A DNA stretch of 45,809 nucleotides, from contig LFSQ01000110.1 of assembly GCA_001512785.1 (NCBI GenBank), positions 1 through 45,809 on the forward strand, given 5' to 3'. The position numbers and the translations under genes were made by a program. Positions within the stretch are counted from its first letter, which is position 1. Each line of letters opens with the position of its first letter. The DNA comes from Syntrophomonas sp. DTU019. GTDB taxonomy: Bacteria > Bacillota > Syntrophomonadia > Syntrophomonadales > Syntrophomonadaceae. Positions 2,042-17,375 of this stretch are shown one piece after another. Below the pieces are notes generated by a model. The model saw only the letters and a program-made list of their open reading frames with translations, made no database searches and had not been told where the DNA came from.

Positions 2042-5000
2042 CTACGGCCACTCCAGCCTGGATATCAACAGCACCGCTTCTCCACGGGTCAGGTAGTTTT
2101 GCGGTTTGAACACGCTCTGCCAGGTATCCGGCCAAATCCCCCGCTGATAACCTTTAAGTATGGCCGGCTGCGCCCATTCCGGGGCCAGGAGAATATCCCC
2201 CGCCGGTTCAAATAAGCTGCGGCCCTGTGATGTTCCCAGCAGGCGGTAGGCCTTATCCATGATGATGGCCATCTCGCTTCGGGTGGCCGCCTGCTGGGGG
2301 CGAAAGCTGCCATCTTCGTACCCTTTAATCAAGCCCAGGCGGCGGGCTTCTTCTACCCATCCTTTTCCCCACCAGGGAATTAGCTGGTCATCAGCGAACC
2401 CGGTTCTGATCGACGGGTTATCAAGTTGCAGATAACGCGCCAGCAGGCTTACCAATTCCAGACGGGTAATGCTGGCATAAGGCCTGAAGGTTCCATCATC
2501 ATAGCCCTGTATGATCCCCTCCTCGGCAAGTTTCATAACCTGCTGGGCCAGATTGCTATCCTGTATATCAGTGAATTGGGTTCTGGGCGGGCTAAATGGG
2601 GCTACCGCTACCTCCCGGGCATACACCGCACCATTGGCGGTATTGATGGCCACTACCTTAATGCTGTCCTCGCCTGGATTATGGAGCAGAAGCCGGTTGA
2701 AGCGGCCACCGGCTTCGGGCTCAAGCCTGACCCGGCTCTGGTCCTGGCGGTAGACCACGATGCGATCAGCGTCAGTTTCACCTCTTATTATCAAGGCCCC
2801 GTTTAACACCTCGGCCTTAACCTCCAGGCGGGGAGCAGCCGCTCCTGTGTCCTGGTCCCCCTCTATAGCTGCCAGATAGGATTTTCCCCCTTCCCCCGCC
2901 AGGGTGATCAAGCGCACTTTGCGCTTTTCGATCATATCCTCCGGGCTTAAGGCAAAGCCCCCGCTGCTCACCAGTGTTGAGGGCAAACACTGGTACAGGC
3001 TGTCGTCATCCATAACAAACATCTGGGTTACGGCATCGTACTTAACCAGGGTCTTTTCGGCGGTCTCCGCTATAGCGGCCTCATCTACCCGTAATGCCTG
3101 GCTGCCGTCCGGTGCTAAAAGCACCCGTACCCATGATCCGGGCTCAAAGGCGGGTTTGGACAACAGGCTGCCGCTGCGAAAACAGCTGGTCTGTTGATTG
3201 AGCTGGCATTCCTGGATTTGATTGTCTTGATTAAAGAAATACAGGGTTTGGGTATTATCATTGAAATAAATAACCCGGCCGTAGGCCACCTGGCTGTATG
3301 CCTCCAGTTGCAGGAACCTTGATAAACCGGGCAGGTGCATTCCGACCACGTAATCTCCCGGCTGAATGTCTTTCAGGCGGGCCTCGATCCCATCCCGGTA
3401 AATCTGGGTTCCAGGAAACAATGTATAGGAACCCCCATTGTTGAGGTTCAGGGTTTCGGTCTCCAGGGATATACCAGTTACCCTGGCAATCACCAGATCG
3501 CGCTGCACGGTGATGTAATTTACCCACCGTGTTTTCGGGGTTATTACCATTTTGACCTTCATGCCCGGCAGCAGTCCTTCCAGATCGACACTTTGCGCAA
3601 ACCCGTAAGGAATGGCTTCGGCTATGCTGCCGGCGATGCTGTTGCTGACATTAATGGCTGCACCCGGATAGAGCCTGTAAGGCTGGTCATCATTGATAAG
3701 CCAGATCTGGCGGGTGGCATAATCGACTTTTTTGATATAACCCTCTACTGGCGCGGCTGCCGCATTAGCCTGCCACAGCACCTGATAGAGGGGGTTGACC
3801 ACGGCATTTATATGGGCCCCGGTGGGAAAATCATGGGAATTGTCTATGGCTTGGCCATTTACCTGCACCTGACGGGATTCCTGCCACTGCCGGTCCAAAT
3901 AATAACCGCCTTCCCTGGCCTGGGGATTAACCTCCATTATCAGGCTGCCGGTTGATGTGGTCAGCATCTGTACCCCGCCGCTTTCCCAGGTCTGCAAGAA
4001 GAGATAGGAGTTTTTATCATTCCAGTACAATTCCCCTCCGATTTTCGCCTCGGGCCGGTCTGCGGTGAGAATGGTTTTGGTCTGATCATAGTCTACAGAG
4101 CCGGTATAAGCCGTGCCATCCGTGAGCACCAGTTTACCCCCGGACTCGACCGCAACAGTCTCATGCTGCATGGCCTGGCCGTATACCAGGGCATAAGACT
4201 GCCGCGTAAAGCCCTCAGCAAGGCTGGCAGCTTTAACATATATGGTATACTCGCCTTCCCTGGCATTACTTATCACAACCTGTTCGACATTATTCGTGCT
4301 GTCAATCCTGCCGCTGCCGGAAAAATCGTTGCCATAGTGTAATTTCCCTTCCGGGTCTTTCACCACCAGATCAAGGTTATTTACCAGCACCTTTGAGGCC
4401 CCGGCTTCAGAAGGGGGATCGGTCCAGGCCAGGGTAGCTTTGAACAAACCTCCGGCTTTATCCAGGCTGATGTGATATTCGCGGGTCTCTTGTGCTGACA
4501 GGCTGGCCTGGTTGACATATTCCACAGTGCGGTCTTTTACAGGCAATATAGTGCCGGCCAGGTCCAATATGCCAAAGCCCTGTGACGATATGTTATTGGG
4601 ATCAAAACGGGCACCGTTAATCAGTAATGCCTTGATCAAAGCCGCGCTGGGATGGTCAAGATGACGATGAGTCTCAAGGTATTCCCTGAGTAAAGCCACT
4701 GCTCCCGCGGCTACCGCGCTGGCCATGCTGGTGCCGCTCATAGTGATATAAGCCGGGTTGCTTTCGAAATTGCTGGTTACCAGGCTGGAGCATGTCCCCA
4801 CGATGTTGGCACCAGGGGCCAGCAGATCCGGTTTGATGCGTCCATCAGCCGTCGGCCCCCGGCTGGATGATGACAATACCTGGCTGGCATCAACGCTGTC
4901 CATGTCCAGACCAGGCCTGGGCAGCTGGCTGGCACCAACCACCAGGGCATTTTTGCTGTTTGCTTCAGCGCTCAGTGAGCCTTGCGCTGGTCCATTGTTG

Positions 5001-5650
5001 CCGGCTCCAAACAAGACCAGAAAATCAGGATGTTCAGCTATAAACGAGTCTGTCTGGCGGCTGTAACCCCGGTAGCTGTTGCCGGGATTGCCCCAGCCGT
5101 TTACATAAACCCGTACCCCGGCCTGATAAGCCGGGTCGTAGAGCTCCGCCAGGTTAGCGGGAATCCTTAATTCACCGTCTTCATCCAGAAGGGCTTGAAA
5201 ATAGAGTGAACTATCAGGTGCGATACCGTGATATTTACCCTGTGAGGATTTGCCGCTGCCCACCAGTACGCCGGCCATATGTGTGCCATGCCCGGAAGGG
5301 TCATCGGGGATGGCCCGACCAGAAACTGATTTAAGCGAACTGATGCGCGGGGCTTGACCCGTATCGCTGCTCAAGTCAGGATGAATATCACTAAGGCTGC
5401 CGCGATCCAGGCCGTTGTCGGCAATGCCTATCAGCTGGCCTTTGCCGCTTAATCCGCCCGGAATAATAAAGTTGCCCGGGTAAAAAGGGGTGGCATTTAC
5501 AATACCAGCAGCCCGGTCGCTCAGCAGACTGGGCTTGGCCTTTGCTGCAGCCTGCAGCGGCCCCAAACACCATGAACAACCCAGGATAATCATGAATATG
5601 AGAACGAAAACCCTGCTTCGTCTTCTGCCACAAAAACCCGTTTTCAACAT
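2042..5650 (-). CDS. Secreted S8 subtilisin-like protease with SLH cell-wall anchor
   Basis: A 1202-residue exported serine protease. A signal peptide covers about residues 1-36 (RRRSR, hydrophobic core, AAA). The subtilase domain carries Asp78 (GIADNGLD), His121 (GHGTHMAG), the oxyanion Asn218 (GAGNNGP) and Ser308 (SGTSMAS). A beta-sandwich C-terminal domain like that of KP-43-type subtilases follows (about 375-490, ATLAWTDPP and NNLDLVV). Four divergent beta-rich repeats of roughly 65-75 residues occupy about 630-930. Three SLH domains end the protein (from about 1023, 1083 and 1140). SLH domains bind pyruvylated secondary cell-wall polymer, which fits the csaB gene at 25165. The start ATG is preceded by GAGCGGAG. 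The substrate is unknown; it could process surface proteins or feed on exogenous protein. Confidence 0.93.
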   Translation of the reverse strand: MLKTGFCGRRRSRVFVLIFMIILGCSWCLGPLQAAAKAKPSLLSDRAAGIVNATPFYPGNFIIPGGLSGKGQLIGIADNGLDRGSLSDIHPDLSSDTGQAPRISSLKSVSGRAIPDDPSGHGTHMAGVLVGSGKSSQGKYHGIAPDSSLYFQALLDEDGELRIPANLAELYDPAYQAGVRVYVNGWGNPGNSYRGYSRQTDSFIAEHPDFLVLFGAGNNGPAQGSLSAEANSKNALVVGASQLPRPGLDMDSVDASQVLSSSSRGPTADGRIKPDLLAPGANIVGTCSSLVTSNFESNPAYITMSGTSMASAVAAGAVALLREYLETHRHLDHPSAALIKALLINGARFDPNNISSQGFGILDLAGTILPVKDRTVEYVNQASLSAQETREYHISLDKAGGLFKATLAWTDPPSEAGASKVLVNNLDLVVKDPEGKLHYGNDFSGSGRIDSTNNVEQVVISNAREGEYTIYVKAASLAEGFTRQSYALVYGQAMQHETVAVESGGKLVLTDGTAYTGSVDYDQTKTILTADRPEAKIGGELYWNDKNSYLFLQTWESGGVQMLTTSTGSLIMEVNPQAREGGYYLDRQWQESRQVQVNGQAIDNSHDFPTGAHINAVVNPLYQVLWQANAAAAPVEGYIKKVDYATRQIWLINDDQPYRLYPGAAINVSNSIAGSIAEAIPYGFAQSVDLEGLLPGMKVKMVITPKTRWVNYITVQRDLVIARVTGISLETETLNLNNGGSYTLFPGTQIYRDGIEARLKDIQPGDYVVGMHLPGLSRFLQLEAYSQVAYGRVIYFNDNTQTLYFFNQDNQIQECQLNQQTSCFRSGSLLSKPAFEPGSWVRVLLAPDGSQALRVDEAAIAETAEKTLVKYDAVTQMFVMDDDSLYQCLPSTLVSSGGFALSPEDMIEKRKVRLITLAGEGGKSYLAAIEGDQDTGAAAPRLEVKAEVLNGALIIRGETDADRIVVYRQDQSRVRLEPEAGGRFNRLLLHNPGEDSIKVVAINTANGAVYAREVAVAPFSPPRTQFTDIQDSNLAQQVMKLAEEGIIQGYDDGTFRPYASITRLELVSLLARYLQLDNPSIRTGFADDQLIPWWGKGWVEEARRLGLIKGYEDGSFRPQQAATRSEMAIIMDKAYRLLGTSQGRSLFEPAGDILLAPEWAQPAILKGYQRGIWPDTWQSVFKPQNYLTRGEAVLLISRLEWP

Positions 5651-5886: not shown

Positions 5887-6465
5887 TTATCCATTTTTGC
5901 CCAGTTTTCCCAGCCCAATGTGCAGGAGATCCAGAGAGCCGGCCAGCAGCCGTGCAGCTTCTAACAGCAATTTCTCACCACTTGGGTTTTCACCGGAGCT
6001 CTGCTGTAGATAATCAAACAGCTGCCGCCCCATGTGCAATTGTTGAATCAGCTGGGTAGTGCTGCTCAAGCTGTTCAGCACCAGATTGTGGCGCATTTTA
6101 ATTACAGTGCCCCCGCTGTCCTGTTTGGTGATGCTCTCAACATAACGCCAGTTGATGTAGCCATAACAGGCATCATTTTTGATCAAAGCCTTCCTGACCT
6201 TCACCGGTATGAAAACCCGGCTATTGCTCAGGTAGAAAGGCAGCAGTTTGCGCCTCTGGAAAAAATCCTGCAGACGGCCTTTCTGTTCTTTCAAGTCTAC
6301 TAAATAGCATCTGGCCAGGGCTTTTATGATCGTCCCAACACTGCGCTTCTCCCAAAAATGTTCGCCCTCTTCCAGCAAAATCCTGGTAAGATCGCCAGTT
6401 TCCTCGTAAGAGGGCACAATGCCGATAACCTGCTCTTTTACGGCTTCGATAGGTTTACATGTCAT
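5887..6465 (-). CDS. ComK-like protein (possible competence transcription factor)
   Basis: A 192-residue protein, the same length as Bacillus subtilis ComK. Several stretches can be aligned to ComK from memory: VIGIVPSYEETGDLTRIL with the N-terminal TIAVLPEEIDGK region, LPFYLSNSRVFIPV with PIMVDPSNQIFLFP, CYGYINWRYVESI with CGWISHVHVKEF, and TVIKMRHNLVLNSLSST with the following TMELPISYNSF stretch. ComK is the DNA-binding master regulator of competence in bacilli. I chose ATG 6465 because GAGGGGG lies just upstream; an in-frame start at 6567 would add 34 residues without a ribosome site. No competence genes are adjacent. The next gene downstream on the same strand is the SLH protease. Family assignment is by eye and only moderately certain; the function here is unknown. 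Confidence 0.5.
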   Translation of the reverse strand: MTCKPIEAVKEQVIGIVPSYEETGDLTRILLEEGEHFWEKRSVGTIIKALARCYLVDLKEQKGRLQDFFQRRKLLPFYLSNSRVFIPVKVRKALIKNDACYGYINWRYVESITKQDSGGTVIKMRHNLVLNSLSSTTQLIQQLHMGRQLFDYLQQSSGENPSGEKLLLEAARLLAGSLDLLHIGLGKLGKNG

Positions 6466-6627
6466 TGGCAGCCCCCTCTTTAAATATGAAATTGGCCGCA
6501 GCTGAGCTCGAAGCATGATTATGATATGATATTCGTCCCAATAAGGGCATGTTCCAAAATATGCCAACCAAAGGGCTTAATGATGCAGATTTCAGGCCTA
6601 AAAGCAGGACTGTTTTATTCAGAGGCT

Positions 6628-7689: not shown

Positions 7690-8892
7690 TCAACCCGAGC
7701 GCCGCTGGTTGATAAACTCTTCACCTGCCCGGTACAGCAAATAGAAAGGCTGCCACCAGCGCCATGCTAGCTTAAACTCCTCATTGCGCCAGTGTGAGAC
7801 CGCCTCGGGGTTAAACAGGTAATAACCTAATACCCTGCACTTGTCGCGCATTTTTAAGGGTAGCATGATATAGGCCAGGTATTGCCCTTTTTTGCTGGAC
7901 TGGTTTAATAACCGGCGCCGATAAAAAGAATATTCACCGGGTAAAGCCTTGCCGCTCCAAAAGAACTGCCAGGGTGGCACTCCTTCGGCCTTGAGCCCGG
8001 TTTCATCCTCCACCATACGTAAGATGACGGCAATTACCTTGCGGTTATCAGCGGTCCCGGCTGTCTGCCAGATGAAATCCCAATCCAGCTCTGCACCCAC
8101 TTTTTCGAGCATAAGACATATATCCAAAAGCCACTTAACTCCCTGGAATTGGTGATGCAGTGCAAAATGGCTGGCTATATGCAGGAATTGCATTTCCCAG
8201 CTTAAGACAGAGAAATTCCAAAGGCCAACCCGGGCTCTGCGTTGGTATTGCATCCATGGGTATTCCTCAACGGGAAAAAGCGCCTTTAAAGGCGAACCTT
8301 CCCATAGCCCGTCTATACCCCAGTGTATGTCTACATTTATGTTGATCTTGCCCAGCGATTTAACAAAATGCATTTCAGTGAAATAAGCCTCAGAAATCCT
8401 CAAGAAATCTTCCAGGGAACCACGATAATCGGCAGTCGCCGGGGTTTGATAGCCAGCCTTGACTAATATTTCTCGTACTCTTGCATAATCCGAGCGGTAA
8501 ATATAGATATCAATATCACTTATAGGCCTTATACCACTATCTTCATATAGCTGATCAACCAGAGAAAAACCCTTTAAAATCAGGTATGGGATACTGTGCT
8601 CTTCAAAAGCCGTAGTGATTTTCCTGCCTTCCCTTTCATAAACCGCATTTTGCAGGGCGATTACCTGAGCTGCTGCTTTTAAGCCATGCCGCAATTCAAC
8701 CGGCAGACCCCATTCCGGGTGAGCCCGGAGCTGATGGTAAAAAAACCCGGCCAATCCATGGCTAATAATACCTTTGATGATGTCGGTTTGATTGCCTTGC
8801 CGCCATTCCCGGAATAGTGCTCTGCTGTCTGAGTTGCCGAAATATACGCGTAGAAAAGTGGCAATAAATTGGTTAGCACACTTATTAGCCAT
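7690..8892 (-). CDS. Nucleotidyltransferase family protein (NTP_transf_5-like)
   Basis: A 400-residue protein of the uncharacterised nucleotidyltransferase family found in many RiPP and exopolysaccharide clusters. A nucleotidyltransferase core is visible: LILKGFSLVDQLYEDSG followed by RPISDIDIYI, giving the metal-binding pair Asp126 and Asp128. The C-terminal half is helical, with a characteristic SHFALHHQFQGVKWLLDI stretch. Homologues accompany lasso peptide clusters of the paeninodin type, where they have been linked to tailoring, but the exact reaction for this protein cannot be read from sequence. It begins two bases after the radical SAM gene (GAGGG overlapping its end), so the two are translationally coupled and belong to the operon starting at 13005. 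Confidence 0.8.
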   Translation of the reverse strand: MANKCANQFIATFLRVYFGNSDSRALFREWRQGNQTDIIKGIISHGLAGFFYHQLRAHPEWGLPVELRHGLKAAAQVIALQNAVYEREGRKITTAFEEHSIPYLILKGFSLVDQLYEDSGIRPISDIDIYIYRSDYARVREILVKAGYQTPATADYRGSLEDFLRISEAYFTEMHFVKSLGKININVDIHWGIDGLWEGSPLKALFPVEEYPWMQYQRRARVGLWNFSVLSWEMQFLHIASHFALHHQFQGVKWLLDICLMLEKVGAELDWDFIWQTAGTADNRKVIAVILRMVEDETGLKAEGVPPWQFFWSGKALPGEYSFYRRRLLNQSSKKGQYLAYIMLPLKMRDKCRVLGYYLFNPEAVSHWRNEEFKLAWRWWQPFYLLYRAGEEFINQRRSG

Positions 8893-8894
8893 TT

Positions 8895-10316
8895 TTATCC
8901 CTCAAAAAATTCCCGATGTGAAGAGTTTCTGTTTATCTTCATTTCAAAGAAATCCCACAAGCGTTCGACATTGTTGGATCGAATGAGATTAAGCCGCCTG
9001 CGTCTCCGGATATAGGGCATATAGTTGCGCTCCATCCAGGCTTGCCTTTCGGCTGGGGGAATCTCGGATAACTGCTGATTATTATAATAATCCTGGACTA
9101 TTTCCCTGCTCCAGGGCATGTTTTCAAATACCCCTGGCCTGAGGCGCTGATACAACCTGGTTCCAGGATGAACCTGCAATGGCGACCAGCTAAAAGAAAA
9201 AACCCGCATTTTTTTTAGCCAGGCCAAGCGCTGCTCCAGATCAGATATGGTTTCACCCTCTACGCCAGTCAGCATATAGGCATGTATTTTCATGCCCTCC
9301 TGCTGGCAGATTTTTATGGCACGTTCATTGATCTCCACCGTGCTATCCTTGTGCATGGAATCGAGGGTCTGCTGAGAAGCCGACTCTATCCCCATTTCGA
9401 TGAGAACGCAACCTGCCTGCTTTAGCCTCCTTACCACTTCGGGTTCAATGTGGTCAGCCCGGGCTTGTATAGCCCAAATCAGGTGGCGCTGTAAACCGCG
9501 TTTGATCATCAGGTCACATATGGCTTCAACCCGAGAACGGCTTATCAGGAAATCGTTATCGTGAAAATAAATACCCTCAACCCCATAATCTCGATACACC
9601 TTGCCAAGCAGTTCCACTACATATTCTGGACTGTGAAAGCGCACCCCTTTGCCATAGGTCAATGATTCTGTACAGAATTCGCATTTTTTCACACAGCCGC
9701 GCGAGGTCAGTAAGGATATGGTTGAAACATAATGATGCCTGATGGTTTCTAATCCCCGGTTAAGATAGTATGATAAATCAAGGCTGGAAAAATCGGGAAA
9801 AGGCAGCTTATCCAGGTCAGTGATGGGCTCTGCTGGATTACTCCTGATCTGGCCGTTGTCACGCCACCATAAACCGGGGATGTCAGCAGCTTTGGCGCCC
9901 TCAACGAAACGCAGCAGAGAATACTCTCCCTCTCCAGTTATTACCGCATCCAGTTCGGGAATCTTTTGCAGTGTGGCTTCAGGAAGGGCGGTTACGTGAT
10001 GCCCTCCGGCCAGTAATGGTCCCGTGTAAATCTGGCGTATCAAGCCAGCGGTTTCAACCAGGTCATAAACCAGGGGGGAAACGGCATTTATCCCGATCAA
10101 ATCGGGTTTAAACTCGGTAATAGTCTGCAGCATGGCTTTATCAATCAAGGCTTGGTTGCCGCCCAGTTTGTATTGCGCGGCAAATCGATCCATAATTTTG
10201 ACCTCATGTCCCGCTTGTTTCAGCAGGCCTGCCAGGTAGGGGAGACTCAGGGGCACCCAGCTCGATGGTGGCATGGTTTTATAGCTGGCATAAGGGTAGA
10301 TTAACAGGATTCTCAT
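8895..10316 (-). CDS. B12-binding-domain radical SAM protein
   Basis: A 473-residue radical SAM enzyme. Residues 1-140 form a cobalamin-binding-like Rossmann domain (ILLIYPYAS, SLPYLAGLLKQAGHEV, ITGEGEYSLLRFVEG). The radical SAM domain follows, with the cluster-binding CxxxCxxC triad Cys208, Cys212, Cys215 in SRGCVKKCEFC. GIYFHDNDFLISR and the later MGIESASQQTLDSMHK segment are typical of the Elp3/MiaB-like subgroup. Cobalamin radical SAM enzymes commonly methylate or rearrange unactivated carbons; the substrate here is not known. The B12 domain lacks an obvious DxHxxG, so cobalamin may not be held in the classical base-off mode. It lies between the DUF362 and nucleotidyltransferase genes in the RiPP operon, so it is a candidate peptide- or glycan-modifying enzyme. 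Confidence 0.85.
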   Translation of the reverse strand: MRILLIYPYASYKTMPPSSWVPLSLPYLAGLLKQAGHEVKIMDRFAAQYKLGGNQALIDKAMLQTITEFKPDLIGINAVSPLVYDLVETAGLIRQIYTGPLLAGGHHVTALPEATLQKIPELDAVITGEGEYSLLRFVEGAKAADIPGLWWRDNGQIRSNPAEPITDLDKLPFPDFSSLDLSYYLNRGLETIRHHYVSTISLLTSRGCVKKCEFCTESLTYGKGVRFHSPEYVVELLGKVYRDYGVEGIYFHDNDFLISRSRVEAICDLMIKRGLQRHLIWAIQARADHIEPEVVRRLKQAGCVLIEMGIESASQQTLDSMHKDSTVEINERAIKICQQEGMKIHAYMLTGVEGETISDLEQRLAWLKKMRVFSFSWSPLQVHPGTRLYQRLRPGVFENMPWSREIVQDYYNNQQLSEIPPAERQAWMERNYMPYIRRRRRLNLIRSNNVERLWDFFEMKINRNSSHREFFEG

Positions 10317-10328
10317 TTCTCAAGGCTC

Positions 10329-11258
10329 CTAATATTGCAGCAGCTGATACTGCTGCCAGTCATTCACCGGCCATACCCGGGCAGCGTGTTCCAGCTGTGG
10401 CATATCTAAAGGATTTTCACGAAAATGTTCCAGACAGTTATGCTGTTGCTTGAGCCTATACAATTCCTGGTAAGCTTGATAATCGACTGCAGCGGGGTGA
10501 TCGCCGATGAGGAGCAAATCAGCCGGACAGGTAGCGCCCCTGGCCGGGCCGCCACTTATCATTGCCATCCTGCCATCGATTACGGTGAGGTCAGCCATAA
10601 CTGCCAGGTTTATCTCCACTGTTTTCTGCTGCAGGTTGTCCTTATGCATGCTGATTCTCTCCAGGGGATGCATATAACCGACCGCGGCTTTCAAAGCCAG
10701 GCTATAGTCTGCCAGACAGTGCGTTTTTAGGTTGGTTAGATTTATTACCCGGTCGACCTCATATAAAAGCCCGGGAACCGTAACCTTATCCAGATACTGT
10801 CCCGGTATAGCGACCTCAACCCACTCCAATTCATCAAAAAAGACCAGACTGGCCAAACCGGCAACAGCAACATCCAGGCCGATACGGCGGGCAACGCGGC
10901 GGGTTGGCAGGCTATTGACTGCGGAACAATCCCCGACCAGGATTTCACCTGCCCCGCTTTTTTGCAAAAAATGCAGGAATTCTCGCAAAAAAACCGGGCA
11001 TGTGGAGGCAGGATAAGGATCTGCGCTGTTAAGGTTGATTTTCACCAGAATGCTCTGCCCTTTAAACCAATTCGCCCACAACTGTTGCCAGGCAGATTCA
11101 ACTGCTGTCCAGTAGTGGTCTGAATTGGAAATGCGCAATACTGCAGGTGGCCTTTCCTTTAACAAGGCTTGCCGGGGCCTGGCAGTCCCCTTGACCTGCT
11201 TATTTTTTAAAACCTTTGGCCTCATTTGTTTTCGGACCAATCGGAGGATCTTTTTCAT
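10329..11258 (-). CDS. DUF362 domain-containing protein
   Basis: A 309-residue protein of the DUF362 family. The recognisable parts are ILVKINLNSADPYPASTCP (about residues 70-88, the family's substrate-entry motif), GAGEILVGDCSA, and LTNLKTHCLADYSLALKAAVGYMHP in the middle. No CxxCxxCxxxC ferredoxin domain is present, unlike many clostridial DUF362 proteins. The family's biochemical role is not established. The N-terminus is very basic (MKKILRLVRKQMRPKVLKNK), perhaps a nucleic-acid or membrane contact. It starts five bases after the kinase stop and ends twelve bases before the radical SAM start, so it is embedded in the RiPP operon and is probably needed for the same product. Confidence 0.8.
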   Translation of the reverse strand: MKKILRLVRKQMRPKVLKNKQVKGTARPRQALLKERPPAVLRISNSDHYWTAVESAWQQLWANWFKGQSILVKINLNSADPYPASTCPVFLREFLHFLQKSGAGEILVGDCSAVNSLPTRRVARRIGLDVAVAGLASLVFFDELEWVEVAIPGQYLDKVTVPGLLYEVDRVINLTNLKTHCLADYSLALKAAVGYMHPLERISMHKDNLQQKTVEINLAVMADLTVIDGRMAMISGGPARGATCPADLLLIGDHPAAVDYQAYQELYRLKQQHNCLEHFRENPLDMPQLEHAARVWPVNDWQQYQLLQY

Positions 11259-11263
11259 AGCAA

Positions 11264-12268
11264 TTAATCCTCTGCCAGAGACTGCAGCAAAGCCACAAAT
11301 CGGTCCATGTCGGTACCGAATTCAAGCTGGTAACAGGGAACTGAGGAAAGAAAGTCCATCAGAAAGTTAAACCTTTTTATAGCGGCTGGTTTGCTTTCAT
11401 AGGGTTTCATGGTAACCGGGAAAAACTCTCCCACCACCCGGGTGGGATTGATCCTTATCAAGCGGCTCTGCGGGGTGCCGGATTGGTTAATGACCAGAAA
11501 GTTATTTATCCTGGTATCTGCTAACCAACTGCCCGGGCTTATCGTCCGGCAATTATAATAATGATCATCATCGATAGTAGCATAAGCCTTCTCCGGCAAT
11601 AGAGCGGGGAAAAACAACTTTCGAGCCTTTTCCCGGATTTTAATGATATCGGATATACTGCAGCCCCGATAACCATTATCGGAATGATAAAGCAAAACAC
11701 GTTCGTCGGATAAGACTTTAAAACCATGCTGTAAAAGGGCAAATATAGCCGTCGACTTGCCACGCCCGCTGTTGCCGCTAAGCATAATCCCATTTCCGTT
11801 AAATTGCACACAGGAGGCATGTACAGAAAAATAGTTGTATTTAATCATAAGCTGGTTTATTAAGTTATAAGCAAAGAGTAAATCGGTATACAAAGACAAG
11901 ATATCATTATGGCTGAAGAGCAGGACTTTAGCGGTTCCATGTAAATAGTCCACATAGGTGCGGGCGTAGCCTTCATAATCAGTCCATTGCTCGGTGTTGC
12001 CCAGATAAGTGTGCATGGTTACGTGGCGATTGAGCCTTAAGGTAAAATCTGGAATCTTTAATTGTGCTTCAGGCAGAGGCATGAGGCGATCAACATATTC
12101 CGCCTCAACAACCTGCAGATCCAGACACAAGTGCGCCGTGCCACCCTGGCCTTCGGGCATGCTTAAAAAATCGCTTATCCTTTTAAGCCACTCAGGCTGA
12201 TTGCACTTGATGCAAATAGTATGTCCTGAAAGTTCATACCACTTTATCTGTGAATCCTGATGGGTCAT
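11264..12268 (-). CDS. HPr-kinase-related kinase of the RiPP cassette
   Basis: A 334-residue P-loop kinase related to HPr kinase/PEPCK. Walker A is GNSGRGKST at residues 165-173, preceded by the family's VHASCV stretch (His150) and followed by LSDERVLLY (Asp188, Glu189), which coordinate metal and phosphate acceptor in HprK. The N-terminal half is not related to the HprK regulatory domain. Homologous kinases in paeninodin-type lasso clusters phosphorylate the C-terminal serine of the precursor. Neither precursor here ends in serine, so the acceptor may differ (Ser in the core, or another molecule). ATG 12268 is chosen because the B2 gene ends at 12273 with GGAAGGG in its last codons. A start at 12376 would overlap B2 by over 100 bases. 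Confidence 0.85.
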   Translation of the reverse strand: MTHQDSQIKWYELSGHTICIKCNQPEWLKRISDFLSMPEGQGGTAHLCLDLQVVEAEYVDRLMPLPEAQLKIPDFTLRLNRHVTMHTYLGNTEQWTDYEGYARTYVDYLHGTAKVLLFSHNDILSLYTDLLFAYNLINQLMIKYNYFSVHASCVQFNGNGIMLSGNSGRGKSTAIFALLQHGFKVLSDERVLLYHSDNGYRGCSISDIIKIREKARKLFFPALLPEKAYATIDDDHYYNCRTISPGSWLADTRINNFLVINQSGTPQSRLIRINPTRVVGEFFPVTMKPYESKPAAIKRFNFLMDFLSSVPCYQLEFGTDMDRFVALLQSLAED

Positions 12269-12272
12269 AGCA

Positions 12273-12713
12273 TTACCCTTCCAAAAAAACGGTATACCGG
12301 TCCAATAATCCGGGTTCTTCATTGAAAGGCTGTCCGTCCAGCATAAGCCAGCTATGGCCCAGCAAGTCCGAGCCATCCTTCCTAACCCCTACAACTACCC
12401 GGGTGCACAGTCCCTGGGCTGCCGACCAGTGATACAAAACCAGGCTGCGCCGCAGACAAGGTCGCGTACTTCGGCCGATGCGGGTCAACCAAAAGGTAGC
12501 ACCCCGATAAATTTTGTCCATAGTCTGAAGCTGGGCCACTGTAGGTGGTTTACTATCTGATTCCAGCCGTACCTTATTATTGGAGTGAATCCTCTTAAGA
12601 ATCTCGGGTAAAGGGCGGAAGCGGATCAAACAATCATAGTAAAGAAGTAAGCCCCCTATCCAGGCTAATAAATATATATCCCGGGGAAAACTATATCCTT
12701 TGTATTGCCACAC
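12273..12713 (-). CDS. Lasso-peptide B2-type protein, transglutaminase-like leader protease
   Basis: A 146-residue protein of the lasso peptide biosynthesis B2 family, a cysteine protease of transglutaminase fold that removes the leader from RiPP precursors. The family core is clear: RPCLRRSLVLY (catalytic Cys86), VGVRKDGSDLLGHSWLMLDG (His120 and Asp126). I take GTG 12713 as start because GGGG precedes it at good spacing; an in-frame TTG at 12764 overlaps the PqqD gene and lacks a ribosome site. It follows the PqqD-type gene (B1), the usual split B1/B2 arrangement in Firmicutes. Leader removal next to a Thr at -2 is typical for this enzyme class, and both candidate precursors have T-x-G. Confidence 0.88.
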   Translation of the reverse strand: MWQYKGYSFPRDIYLLAWIGGLLLYYDCLIRFRPLPEILKRIHSNNKVRLESDSKPPTVAQLQTMDKIYRGATFWLTRIGRSTRPCLRRSLVLYHWSAAQGLCTRVVVGVRKDGSDLLGHSWLMLDGQPFNEEPGLLDRYTVFLEG

Positions 12714-12747
12714 AACTACATCCCCAATATTAGACTTACAGCATATT

Positions 12748-13005
12748 TTATAGCAATAATTCAAACCGGGTTAGTGTATTAACTAATTCCTCGATATCCC
12801 GTGCTAAAACCTCCCGCTCAACTTCATATTCCTCCAGCATCTGGTCGATAATTTCATCAATCGTGGTCTTTCCGTCTACTTTATTCCAAAAAGAGCAGGC
12901 AACTTTGTTTAGGCCAAAGTACCTGCCGGTTACCGGGTTGAGTAAAACCGTTTCTCCATCAACCTCACGCCAGATTACGTCTTGGTTTTTTATTAAGACC
13001 CGCAC
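12748..13005 (-). CDS. PqqD-family RiPP recognition element (lasso B1-type)
   Basis: An 85-residue PqqD-like protein. The winged-helix RRE fold is recognisable: VIWREVDGETVLLNPVTGRYFGLNKVACSFW forms the three-stranded sheet that binds leader peptides, followed by helices IDEIIDQMLEEYEVEREVLARDIEELVNTL. Such proteins present a precursor to the B2 protease by gripping its Y-x-x-P leader motif. Start GTG with AAGGGGG eight bases upstream. It is the first gene of the minus-strand RiPP operon, opposite to the two candidate precursors, and a good extended -10 promoter lies about 60 bases upstream. Confidence 0.9.
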   Translation of the reverse strand: MRVLIKNQDVIWREVDGETVLLNPVTGRYFGLNKVACSFWNKVDGKTTIDEIIDQMLEEYEVEREVLARDIEELVNTLTRFELLL

Positions 13006-13045: not shown

Positions 13046-13074
13046 TTTACAATAAACTGCAAAAATTATATCAT
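13046..13074 (+). promoter_or_regulatory. Candidate promoter for the precursor peptides
   Basis: TTTACA (13046-13051), 17-base spacer, TATCAT (13069-13074), five of six matches in each hexamer. It would give a leader of about 120 bases before the first peptide. It overlaps the minus-strand promoter for the PqqD gene, so the two directions could compete. Of the 13006-13503 interval, 13006-13189 shows only promoter-like sequence; the rest is filled by two peptides and a hairpin. Confidence 0.35.
13065..13073 (-). promoter_or_regulatory. Extended -10 promoter of the RiPP modification operon
   Basis: On the minus strand the sequence reads TGATATAAT, a perfect extended -10 element (TGnTATAAT). 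It lies about 60 bases upstream of the PqqD-type start codon, giving a short leader. No good -35 is visible, as is normal for extended -10 promoters. The operon driven from here would run through the PqqD, B2, kinase, DUF362, radical SAM and nucleotidyltransferase genes and perhaps galE. Confidence 0.55.
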
Positions 13075-13202
13075 ATGCTTATACATATTTGTGCATAGGA
13101 GCAAGGCGGTCCCGTCAAAATAAATAACCGGTGCACGTATAGCCTGAAGCTTTGTTGAGACTCCGCAGGCGGTTTGAATATAAGAAATAAGGAGGGAATA
13201 GA

Positions 13203-13295
13203 ATGGCAAAACAGGATTATGAAACCCCAAGCGTTGTAGTATATGAAGACTTACGGGATGTTACCGCAGGAATGCCTTCCGAAGGAGGGACTTAA
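13203..13295 (+). CDS. Candidate RiPP precursor peptide A
   Basis: A 30-residue peptide, too short for routine gene calling. AAGGAGGG six bases before the ATG is one of the best ribosome sites in the window. Residues 2-9 read AKQDYETP and contain the Y-x-x-P motif recognised by PqqD-type RREs. VVVYEDL and then T21-A22-G23 follow. In lasso leaders a Thr at -2 precedes a Gly at +1, so the predicted core is G23 to T30, GMPSEGGT. That is only eight residues, with Glu at core position 5 rather than 7-9, so a classical lasso ring is not possible. Its close paralogue lies 22 bases downstream. Confidence 0.75.
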   Translation: MAKQDYETPSVVVYEDLRDVTAGMPSEGGT

Positions 13296-13317
13296 TGTGG
13301 CTAGGAGGAACGAAGTA

Positions 13318-13419
13318 GTGCGAAAACAGGAATATGATACTCCGGTAGTCATAAATTATGAGGACTTAATCAACACTACTGGCGGAGAATATAACATTTC
13401 AGACAATGGGCTTGGATAA
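13318..13419 (+). CDS. Candidate RiPP precursor peptide B
   Basis: A 33-residue paralogue of peptide A; GTG start with AGGAGG at 13303-13308, nine bases upstream. Aligned without gaps, the two share M-x-KQ-[DE]-Y-[DE]-TP, V at 11, YEDL at 14-17, Thr21 and the T-x-G step, while the C-termini differ completely, the pattern of a conserved leader with a variable core. The predicted core begins after T20-T21 or as T20-T21-G22 depending on register; with Thr at -2 it is GGEYNISDNGLG (12 residues), with Asp at core position 8, the position used for Gly1-Asp8 lasso macrolactams. Only four residues would remain as tail, shorter than known lassos. A hairpin follows. Confidence 0.75.
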   Translation: MRKQEYDTPVVINYEDLINTTGGEYNISDNGLG

Positions 13420-13435
13420 TGGTAACTACAGGACA

Positions 13436-13489
13436 GGGGAAAATTCATTTGTCTTATCACTAAGGTGGTAAGGCAAACAAATTTTCCCC
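13436..13489. terminator. Long hairpin between precursor peptides and glycosyltransferase
   Basis: GGGGAAAATT (13436-13445) pairs perfectly with AATTTTCCCC (13480-13489), and the stem continues inward with a few mismatches (TTTGTCTTA against TAAGGCAAA) to a CAC-TAAG-GTG tip. Downstream on the plus strand is TAATTCTATTAC, only moderately U-rich, but the A/T part of the stem supplies U on both strands. It lies 16 bases after the second peptide and 14 bases before the end of the convergent glycosyltransferase, so it probably terminates both directions. Confidence 0.65.
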
Positions 13490-13503
13490 TAATTCTATTA
13501 CTT

Positions 13504-15848: not shown

Positions 15849-17375
15849 CTAGTATGCTCCCTTGCGGTTTAACACAATCCCTACAGTTCTGAATAACAGG
15901 GAAATATCCAGCCACAATGACCAGTTGCGTACATACCATGATTCCATCAAAACGCGCTCCTGGTAATCAATATCGCTGCGGCCGCTTACCTGCCACAGAC
16001 CGGTCATTCCCGGCGAAACCATCATATAGTCCCGGGCCGCATCACCAAAGCGTTCCATTTCTTCAGCTATTATGGGACGCGGTCCTACCAGGCTCATCTC
16101 ACCTTTAAGCACGTTGATCAACTGGGGAATTTCGTCCAGGCTGGTCTGGCGAAGAATCCTTCCTATTCGTGTGACCCGGGGGTCATGCTTGAGTTTGAAG
16201 TCCCGGTTCCATTCCTCCTGCAATTCTGGATTATCTTCGAGCAACTGCGGCAATAATTCCTGAGCGTTCATCACCATGCTGCGAAACTTGTAACAGTTGA
16301 ATGGCACGCCATTCTTACCCAGCCTTTTATGAGCAAATAATGTTGGCCCCGGGCTTTCGATACGGATCAATATCGCTATAAGCAGGAGCAGGGGGGCTAA
16401 CAGCATTATCAACAGGCTGCCTGCGATAATGTCAAAAGCCCTTTTGCCGATTACGTTAATGCGGCTGGCCAAATTATTGCGGGTTCTGAATGCCAGCAGG
16501 CGTTCGTTAAAGAAGTATTCCGCTTCCCCGCCAATAACGGGAATACCTGCCAGATCAGGAACCACCAGAATAGAACGGGTATACGGCTGCACCTGATTGA
16601 CCACTGATACCAGCTGCGGCCCTAGCAGATCCGGCGCAGCTATTACCAAGTGGCGAATCCCATACTTATGCAGCACTGATGGCAAATCCCCTATAGATCC
16701 CAAAACCAGGTATTCCTGATCATTTATATGAACAACCCCGGTATCATCTGCAGGGTTCATCGTAATCAAGCCGCAGACTGTATAACCCAGATAATGATCT
16801 TTGGATAAAGCCTCCACAATCATGCGGGCCTGTGCCCCGGTGCCGGCAATTAGGCAGGGTTCATTCCACAAGCCGGTTTTCTTCAGCATAGTCTTTGTCA
16901 AGAAGCGCCCTAACGGGACTGCCGGAAGTGCTAGTAGATATCCCACCAGCAATACGGTTCTGGAAACCTCACCGCCCAATTTCATCAAAGATACAATAGC
17001 AAAAGCAAGAATGAAGGTTAAAGTCACCGCGCGGATCACTTTCCTGCTTTCCTGCCAAAAGGGCAGACGTGTCGTATACAGGCCTTCATAGTACATACAC
17101 AGCAAGTACAGTCCCAGAATAGCCCAGCCGTAATCAGTAAGGTTTTCCGGGAGTTTATCGGGAAAGTACGGGTATATCAGGGGCAAAAGCCCTAGTCTTA
17201 TCTGTATGCTGGCAGCCAAGACCAGCACCATGCTGAGGAGATCCACTGCTGTCAAAGCGATGATAGCTGCGCATTTGCGCAGTATCTGAGGCATAGTTGC
17301 CCAGGCAATGGAATTCAACGACTCCGCTATTTCCGGAGTGGGATTGCTGATAGTACTAGCCTCCATTTGATTCAT
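15849..17375 (-). CDS. Polyprenyl glycosylphosphotransferase (exopolysaccharide initiating enzyme)
   Basis: A 508-residue WbaP/CpsE-type enzyme that transfers a sugar-1-phosphate from a nucleotide sugar to undecaprenyl phosphate, the first step of repeat-unit synthesis. The N-terminal third has four to five membrane segments (about 33-165), followed by a Rossmann-like CoA-binding-type domain (about 170-300). The bacterial sugar transferase domain starts at KRAFDIIAGSLLIMLLAPLLL and shows FAHKRLGKNGVPFNCYKFRSM, TSLDEIPQLINVLKGEMSLVGPRP and SPGMTGLWQVSGRSDIDYQERV. With galE in the locus, a galactose- or N-acetylgalactosamine-type first sugar is plausible. It begins 34 bases after the polymerase/ligase gene. 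Confidence 0.93.
   Translation of the reverse strand: MNQMEASTISNPTPEIAESLNSIAWATMPQILRKCAAIIALTAVDLLSMVLVLAASIQIRLGLLPLIYPYFPDKLPENLTDYGWAILGLYLLCMYYEGLYTTRLPFWQESRKVIRAVTLTFILAFAIVSLMKLGGEVSRTVLLVGYLLALPAVPLGRFLTKTMLKKTGLWNEPCLIAGTGAQARMIVEALSKDHYLGYTVCGLITMNPADDTGVVHINDQEYLVLGSIGDLPSVLHKYGIRHLVIAAPDLLGPQLVSVVNQVQPYTRSILVVPDLAGIPVIGGEAEYFFNERLLAFRTRNNLASRINVIGKRAFDIIAGSLLIMLLAPLLLLIAILIRIESPGPTLFAHKRLGKNGVPFNCYKFRSMVMNAQELLPQLLEDNPELQEEWNRDFKLKHDPRVTRIGRILRQTSLDEIPQLINVLKGEMSLVGPRPIIAEEMERFGDAARDYMMVSPGMTGLWQVSGRSDIDYQERVLMESWYVRNWSLWLDISLLFRTVGIVLNRKGAY

Follow-up and report, generated by a model that had tools for sequence, protein, structure and literature searches.

Among the described systems, the linear polyphosphorylated peptides (LPPs; Popov et al. 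2026, PMC13381572), with polyphosphorylated core Ser, combine a discrete RRE that binds a YxxP leader, an HprK-like kinase and an NTP transferase with no macrolactam cyclase; their several precursors, of 35-200 aa, have a leader of the form YxxPxVLxHQxIxFETxxS, divergent C-termini and a Ser early in the core, they often lie in polysaccharide loci, and they are accompanied by a SipW-like signal peptidase that cuts after T(-1) and by an MsbA-type exporter. In LppB, residues D70, Y60, N33 and V35 are reported to hold the leader Tyr and Pro, and LppK phosphorylates core Ser3 of LppA (PMC13381572). The kinase-tailored lasso peptides paeninodin, pseudomycoidin and BsfA (PMC9266682, PMC10368454) have a B1 RRE, a B2 peptidase, an HprK-like kinase and a YxxP leader motif at -17/-14, with a penultimate leader Thr that is Ile in BsfA; pseudomycoidin also has an annotated nucleotidyltransferase. 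PsmK and PsmN phosphorylate and glycosylate Ser (PMC9266682), and BsfK phosphorylates core Ser3 of BsfA (PMC10368454). PQQ-type pathways pair a PqqD-family carrier protein with a radical SAM enzyme.

The window analysed here is the whole of a 45,809-nucleotide stretch of DNA from Syntrophomonas sp. DTU019, in which two small ORFs, encoding peptides A and B, lie beside six cassette genes, arranged consecutively on the minus strand: RRE, B2, kinase, DUF362, radical SAM and NTP_transf_5 (Table 1). With the LPPs this locus shares a discrete RRE carrying the Tyr-binding Asp70 and Asn33, the YxxP leader, the HprK-like kinase and NTP transferase without a cyclase, and several precursors with divergent C-termini and an early core Ser; with the kinase-tailored lasso peptides it shares the B1 RRE, B2, the position of YxxP, the penultimate Thr, the kinase and, as in pseudomycoidin, the nucleotidyltransferase; and with the PQQ-type pathways, the carrier-family protein and a radical SAM enzyme. 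It is set apart from the LPPs by the lack of a SipW-like peptidase and by a different leader end, and from the lasso peptides by the lack of a cyclase and by unsuitable cores. The preferred reading, to which a probability of roughly 0.7 is given, is that A and B are the precursors for a lasso-derived RiPP pathway that lacks the macrolactam cyclase and whose products are short linear peptides, phosphorylated and possibly also glycosylated. Since the ring-closing enzyme is missing from otherwise lasso-like machinery, the products are probably very short, linear and phosphorylated on Ser.

Table 1. Precursor genes, cassette genes and flanking elements in the window.
Feature	Position	Strand	Remarks
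Precursor peptide A	13203..13295	+	30 aa; ATG 13203, TAA 13295; sequence MAKQDYETPSVVVYEDLRDVTAGMPSEGGT; leader MAKQDYETPSVVVYEDLRDVTA; predicted core GMPSEGGT
Precursor peptide B	13318..13419	+	33 aa; GTG start 13318, TAA 13419; sequence VRKQEYDTPVVINYEDLINTTGGEYNISDNGLG; predicted core GEYNISDNGLG
PqqD-family RRE (lasso B1 type)	12748..13005	-	PF05402 1.5e-20; NF033536 2.8e-14, below its cut-off
B2-type leader peptidase	12273..12716	-	transglutaminase-like cysteine peptidase; PF13471 6.8e-14; NF033537 lasso_biosyn_B2 45.7 bits vs cut-off 33
HprK-like peptide kinase	11264..12268	-	PF07475 at cut-off; profile matches HprK/P structures
DUF362 protein	10329..11258	-	PF04015 1.7e-39; cassette component; recurs with cassette in L073, L074, L090
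B12-binding radical SAM enzyme (BchE-like)	8895..10316	-	PF04055 + PF02310
NTP_transf_5 nucleotidyltransferase	7690..8892	-	PF14907 8.6e-46; PsmN/LppN-like by annotation
Promoter-like block	13046..13100	.	between cassette and precursors; TTTACA-17-TATCAT on +, TATAAT on -
Hairpin	13435..13490	.	between peptide B and convergent glycosyltransferase gene; -34.8 kcal/mol, z -6.4; self-match on opposite strand

Both ORFs were found where the initial annotation had placed them, and the context that it described is also present: strong Shine-Dalgarno sites (AAGGAG, 8 nt upstream of A; AGGAGG, 9 nt upstream of B), a position divergent from the neighbouring PqqD gene, and a strong downstream hairpin, which is a probable terminator. 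A and B are separated by 22 bases on the same strand, and the mechanical ORF list holds a longer in-frame version of B from 13243. The ungapped leader they were said to share has 12 of 23 positions identical; when the 10 kb around it was dinucleotide-shuffled 60 times, no two neighbouring ORFs shared more than 10 identities. The cores, which were said to differ entirely, do so apart from one Ser. Taken alone, the leader similarity is only suggestive, and the decisive support for reading A and B as real genes is their conservation in other genomes. Neither peptide is recognised by Pfam or NCBIfam (the best hint, a cyanobacterial lasso model at E 0.086, lies below cut-off), and an Rfam search of the window gave no match. 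The divergent promoter-like block is near-identical in four genomes, though in the fourth the PqqD protein shows no more than about 45-49% identity.

A search with the RRE protein recovered the same cassette in two Syntrophomonas congeners, G001 and G002 (the public record names two cassette-bearing congeners as Syntrophomonas sp. UBA4807 and sp. DTU019), and A and B are both present at the same place in these two, beside a third related peptide. Leader pN/pS is 0.16-0.25 overall (0.21-0.25 for the A orthologues and 0.16-0.25 for those of B, in two congeners), synonymous change in the leaders is near saturation, and A and B are, by these ratios, under purifying selection; the Ser at core position 6 of peptide B is kept in 3/3 orthologues. 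The third cassette peptide is intact in G001 (MDRLVYEKPKLIVFEDLSEITAFNASVPT) and has a stop after MYKLSYEKPQLITFEACVK in G002 (L013, about 16041-16115).

Altogether 23 precursors were collected from eight genomes, in seven of which the cassette was seen, with no cyclase close by. The initial annotation had taken A and B for RiPP precursors and had named as refuting this a lack of conservation in cassette-bearing genomes together with a lack of transcription and translation; the reading is supported and withstands that test, with leader peptides next to or within the cassette in all seven genomes where it was detected. The order is represented by 63 genomes, of which 5 carry the leader and 4 an above-cut-off B2 gene, the leader being present in 4/4 of the latter; the fifth leader genome, G003, has peptides, but the cassette was not found in its assembly, which is 87% complete and from which the flanking EPS gene is also absent. 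The leader system is rare in the phylum (2/398 sampled genomes, window included), and 2/97 genomes have it in the class of G242. Searching with the leader profile finds further copies in congener chromosomes, some distant from the cassette: in three congeners, one to three precursor-like peptides with this leader are encoded upstream of ytxC (PF08812) without linkage to the cassette (L047 in G002:C8, L050/L064 in G001:C1 and L035 in G003:C49), and another such peptide is found in G001:C47 (L048). Several precursors, the unlinked ones in the congeners among them, are probably served by a single cassette. Viral contigs gave no relative of the RRE, and plasmids only distant PqqD proteins, with no radical SAM match at 1e-40.

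Tyr(-17), Pro(-14) and Thr(-2) are invariant in 23/23 precursors, within the consensus YEKPx[LV]xxYEDLxxxT[AG], and their spacing is that reported for lasso precursors (PMC10368454). The invariant Thr(-2), absent from the initial annotation, fixes the boundary between leader and core, as it does in lasso precursors. The predicted cores are of 5-13 residues without Cys, and the only feature common to them is Ser: every core has it, and at least one such residue falls at position 3-6. A permutation test of Ser in all cores against the pool's composition gave p 9e-5, a value that overstates independence because related paralogues are included and some core columns are part of the search profile. 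The initial annotation had likewise passed over the missing cyclase, the unusual shortness of the cores, this common Ser and the additional precursors at other sites in the congeners. The presumed phospho-acceptor is thus placed as in BsfA, and not at the C-terminal Ser as in paeninodin.

The best solved relative of the RRE is TbiB1 (5.7e-11), to which it scores far closer than to LppB; N33, V35, Y60 and D70, which align to LppB with the same numbering, are invariant in six RREs, and the protein, carrying these Tyr/Pro-binding residues, would be able to take the YxxP leader, as had been suggested. The B2 peptidase appears intact: C103, H137 and E149 are invariant, the third residue of the triad being Glu, and its start is likely the GTG, judging from alignment with the congeners; by sequence, no solved relative of the B2 profile was found. 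An AlphaFold model of the kinase has the HprK/P fold (Z 15.9 to 1ko7, 2.2 A over 131 residues), and its invariant H156, K177, D194 and D213 could correspond to the His, Lys, Asp and Asp of the motif reported for lasso kinases (PMC9266682). The radical SAM enzyme is 47-69% identical to those in the cassettes of other lineages, with CxxxCxxC invariant, and D126 and D128 of NTP_transf_5 are invariant also. For the DUF362 protein the AlphaFold model has a pLDDT of 64, and its best matches, a Thermotoga protein and lactate racemase (LarA) structures, are weak and only a lead; a reading of its function from this model was rejected as too uncertain.

Two loci in unrelated Bacillota (L073 and L074) contain all six genes, NTP_transf_5 included, in a different order and outside a polysaccharide locus, and a short contig (L090) contains four of the six, with the RRE and NTP_transf_5 not in view. 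This recurrence, in another order and away from EPS genes, marks the six as a functional unit rather than passengers of an EPS locus. G011 has precursors, RRE, B2 and kinase and no such radical SAM gene, so that RRE, B2 and kinase make up the minimal unit and the radical SAM step is not shared by all. Next to the cassette no dedicated exporter was recognised, and a scan of its genes and their neighbours gave no signal peptidase.

The chemistry of the product can be inferred from the gene content as follows. The RRE would bind the YxxP leader and the kinase would phosphorylate the core Ser at position 3-6; B2 would cut after residue -1 to free a linear phosphopeptide 5-13 residues long; NTP_transf_5 would then transfer a nucleotidyl or hexosyl moiety onto the phosphate, as in pseudomycoidin (PMC9266682); and the B12-radical SAM and DUF362 proteins may add a further modification. 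Such a pathway suggests use of the lasso B1/B2 machinery, canonical peptidase included, in the absence of a lasso fold, and would place a second route to linear phosphopeptides beside that of the LPPs; it also suggests a link between the DUF362/B12-radical SAM pair and peptide modification. A literature search of open-licence papers found none on the DUF362/B12-radical SAM/B2 cassette, and the cyclase-free B1/B2 variant is not described in the searchable open-licence literature. The 23 precursors with one common residue form a ready substrate set, so that the kinase hypothesis is directly testable, and the leader profile is a means of finding more such small genes.

A more speculative reading, considered rather unlikely, is that the cyclase-free cassette and its scattered short precursors form a separate RiPP class, in which the B12-radical SAM and DUF362 proteins act on a phosphoserine peptide to give a short peptide of a new kind, modified at phosphorus or carbon. 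The same two proteins, travelling with a PqqD-type RRE and the rest of the cassette in several lineages, would also fit a pathway to a small molecule or cofactor, like those for PQQ or mycofactocin, with the radical SAM enzyme rebuilding core residues and the peptide then degraded. This is unlikely: a fixed cofactor would need fixed residues, whereas the cores diverge completely apart from the one Ser, even between paralogues of the same genome; G011 keeps its precursors, RRE, B2 and kinase without such a radical SAM gene; and in contrast to the PQQ type, the enzyme is B12-binding and BchE-like, not PqqE-like, and a kinase and B2 are present.

That A and B are ordinary lasso precursors, with the cyclase encoded elsewhere in the genome, accords with the lasso-like YxxP/Thr leader, B1 RRE (PF05402) and B2 (NF033537, above cut-off), with the draft state of the genome (92.8% complete), and with Gly1 and Asp7 of peptide B, which could close a 7-residue ring. 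However, whole-genome searches of G000, G001 and G002, of which G002 has an estimated completeness of 100%, gave no full-length PF00733 protein (the asparagine-synthetase-type cyclase), nor was a cyclase found near the cassettes of L073, L074 and L090. PF00733 matches of some 60 residues were not accepted as cyclases, given their length and open frames, and the full-length homologues of G003 and G011 carry MCG, like ordinary AsnB. Further, most of the cores lack the lasso-type acid at positions 7-9: D or E occurs there in only 4/23, leaving 19 without an acid, and a length of 5-13 aa leaves little or no tail to thread. A distant cyclase is accordingly held to be quite improbable.

It is very unlikely that the system is a true member of the LPP family, with a SipW-like signal peptidase to process it; the RRE, HprK-like kinase, NTP transferase, missing cyclase, polysaccharide locus and core Ser near the N-terminus are all as in that family (PMC13381572), but the cassette encodes B2 and no recognised signal peptidase, an MsbA-type exporter is lacking beside it, the leader has Thr at -2 and ends in T-x, not FET, and so departs from the LPP consensus, the cores are of 5-13 aa, DUF362 and B12-radical SAM proteins are usual companions, and the RRE scores far nearer to TbiB1 than to LppB. 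Chance or decayed ORFs without a product, for which the short lengths and the truncated third peptide of G002 might speak, can be practically dismissed in view of the synteny, purifying selection, Shine-Dalgarno sites and recurrence in unrelated Bacillota.

The PqqD loci of G056 and G057 were set aside as different systems, without an A/B-type leader. That of G056 (L016, 8480-15219) encodes two RREs, a PEPCK/HprK-like kinase, an ABC exporter and small proteins of 182-186 aa, and resembles an LPP-type cluster, with no signal peptidase confirmed by Pfam. In the window, a protein of about 200 aa without a Pfam match (5887-6567) is conserved beside galE in 3/3 congeners, and a subtilase-family protein with S-layer homology domains (2042-5650) adjoins the cassette and the EPS genes and is kept in both congeners.
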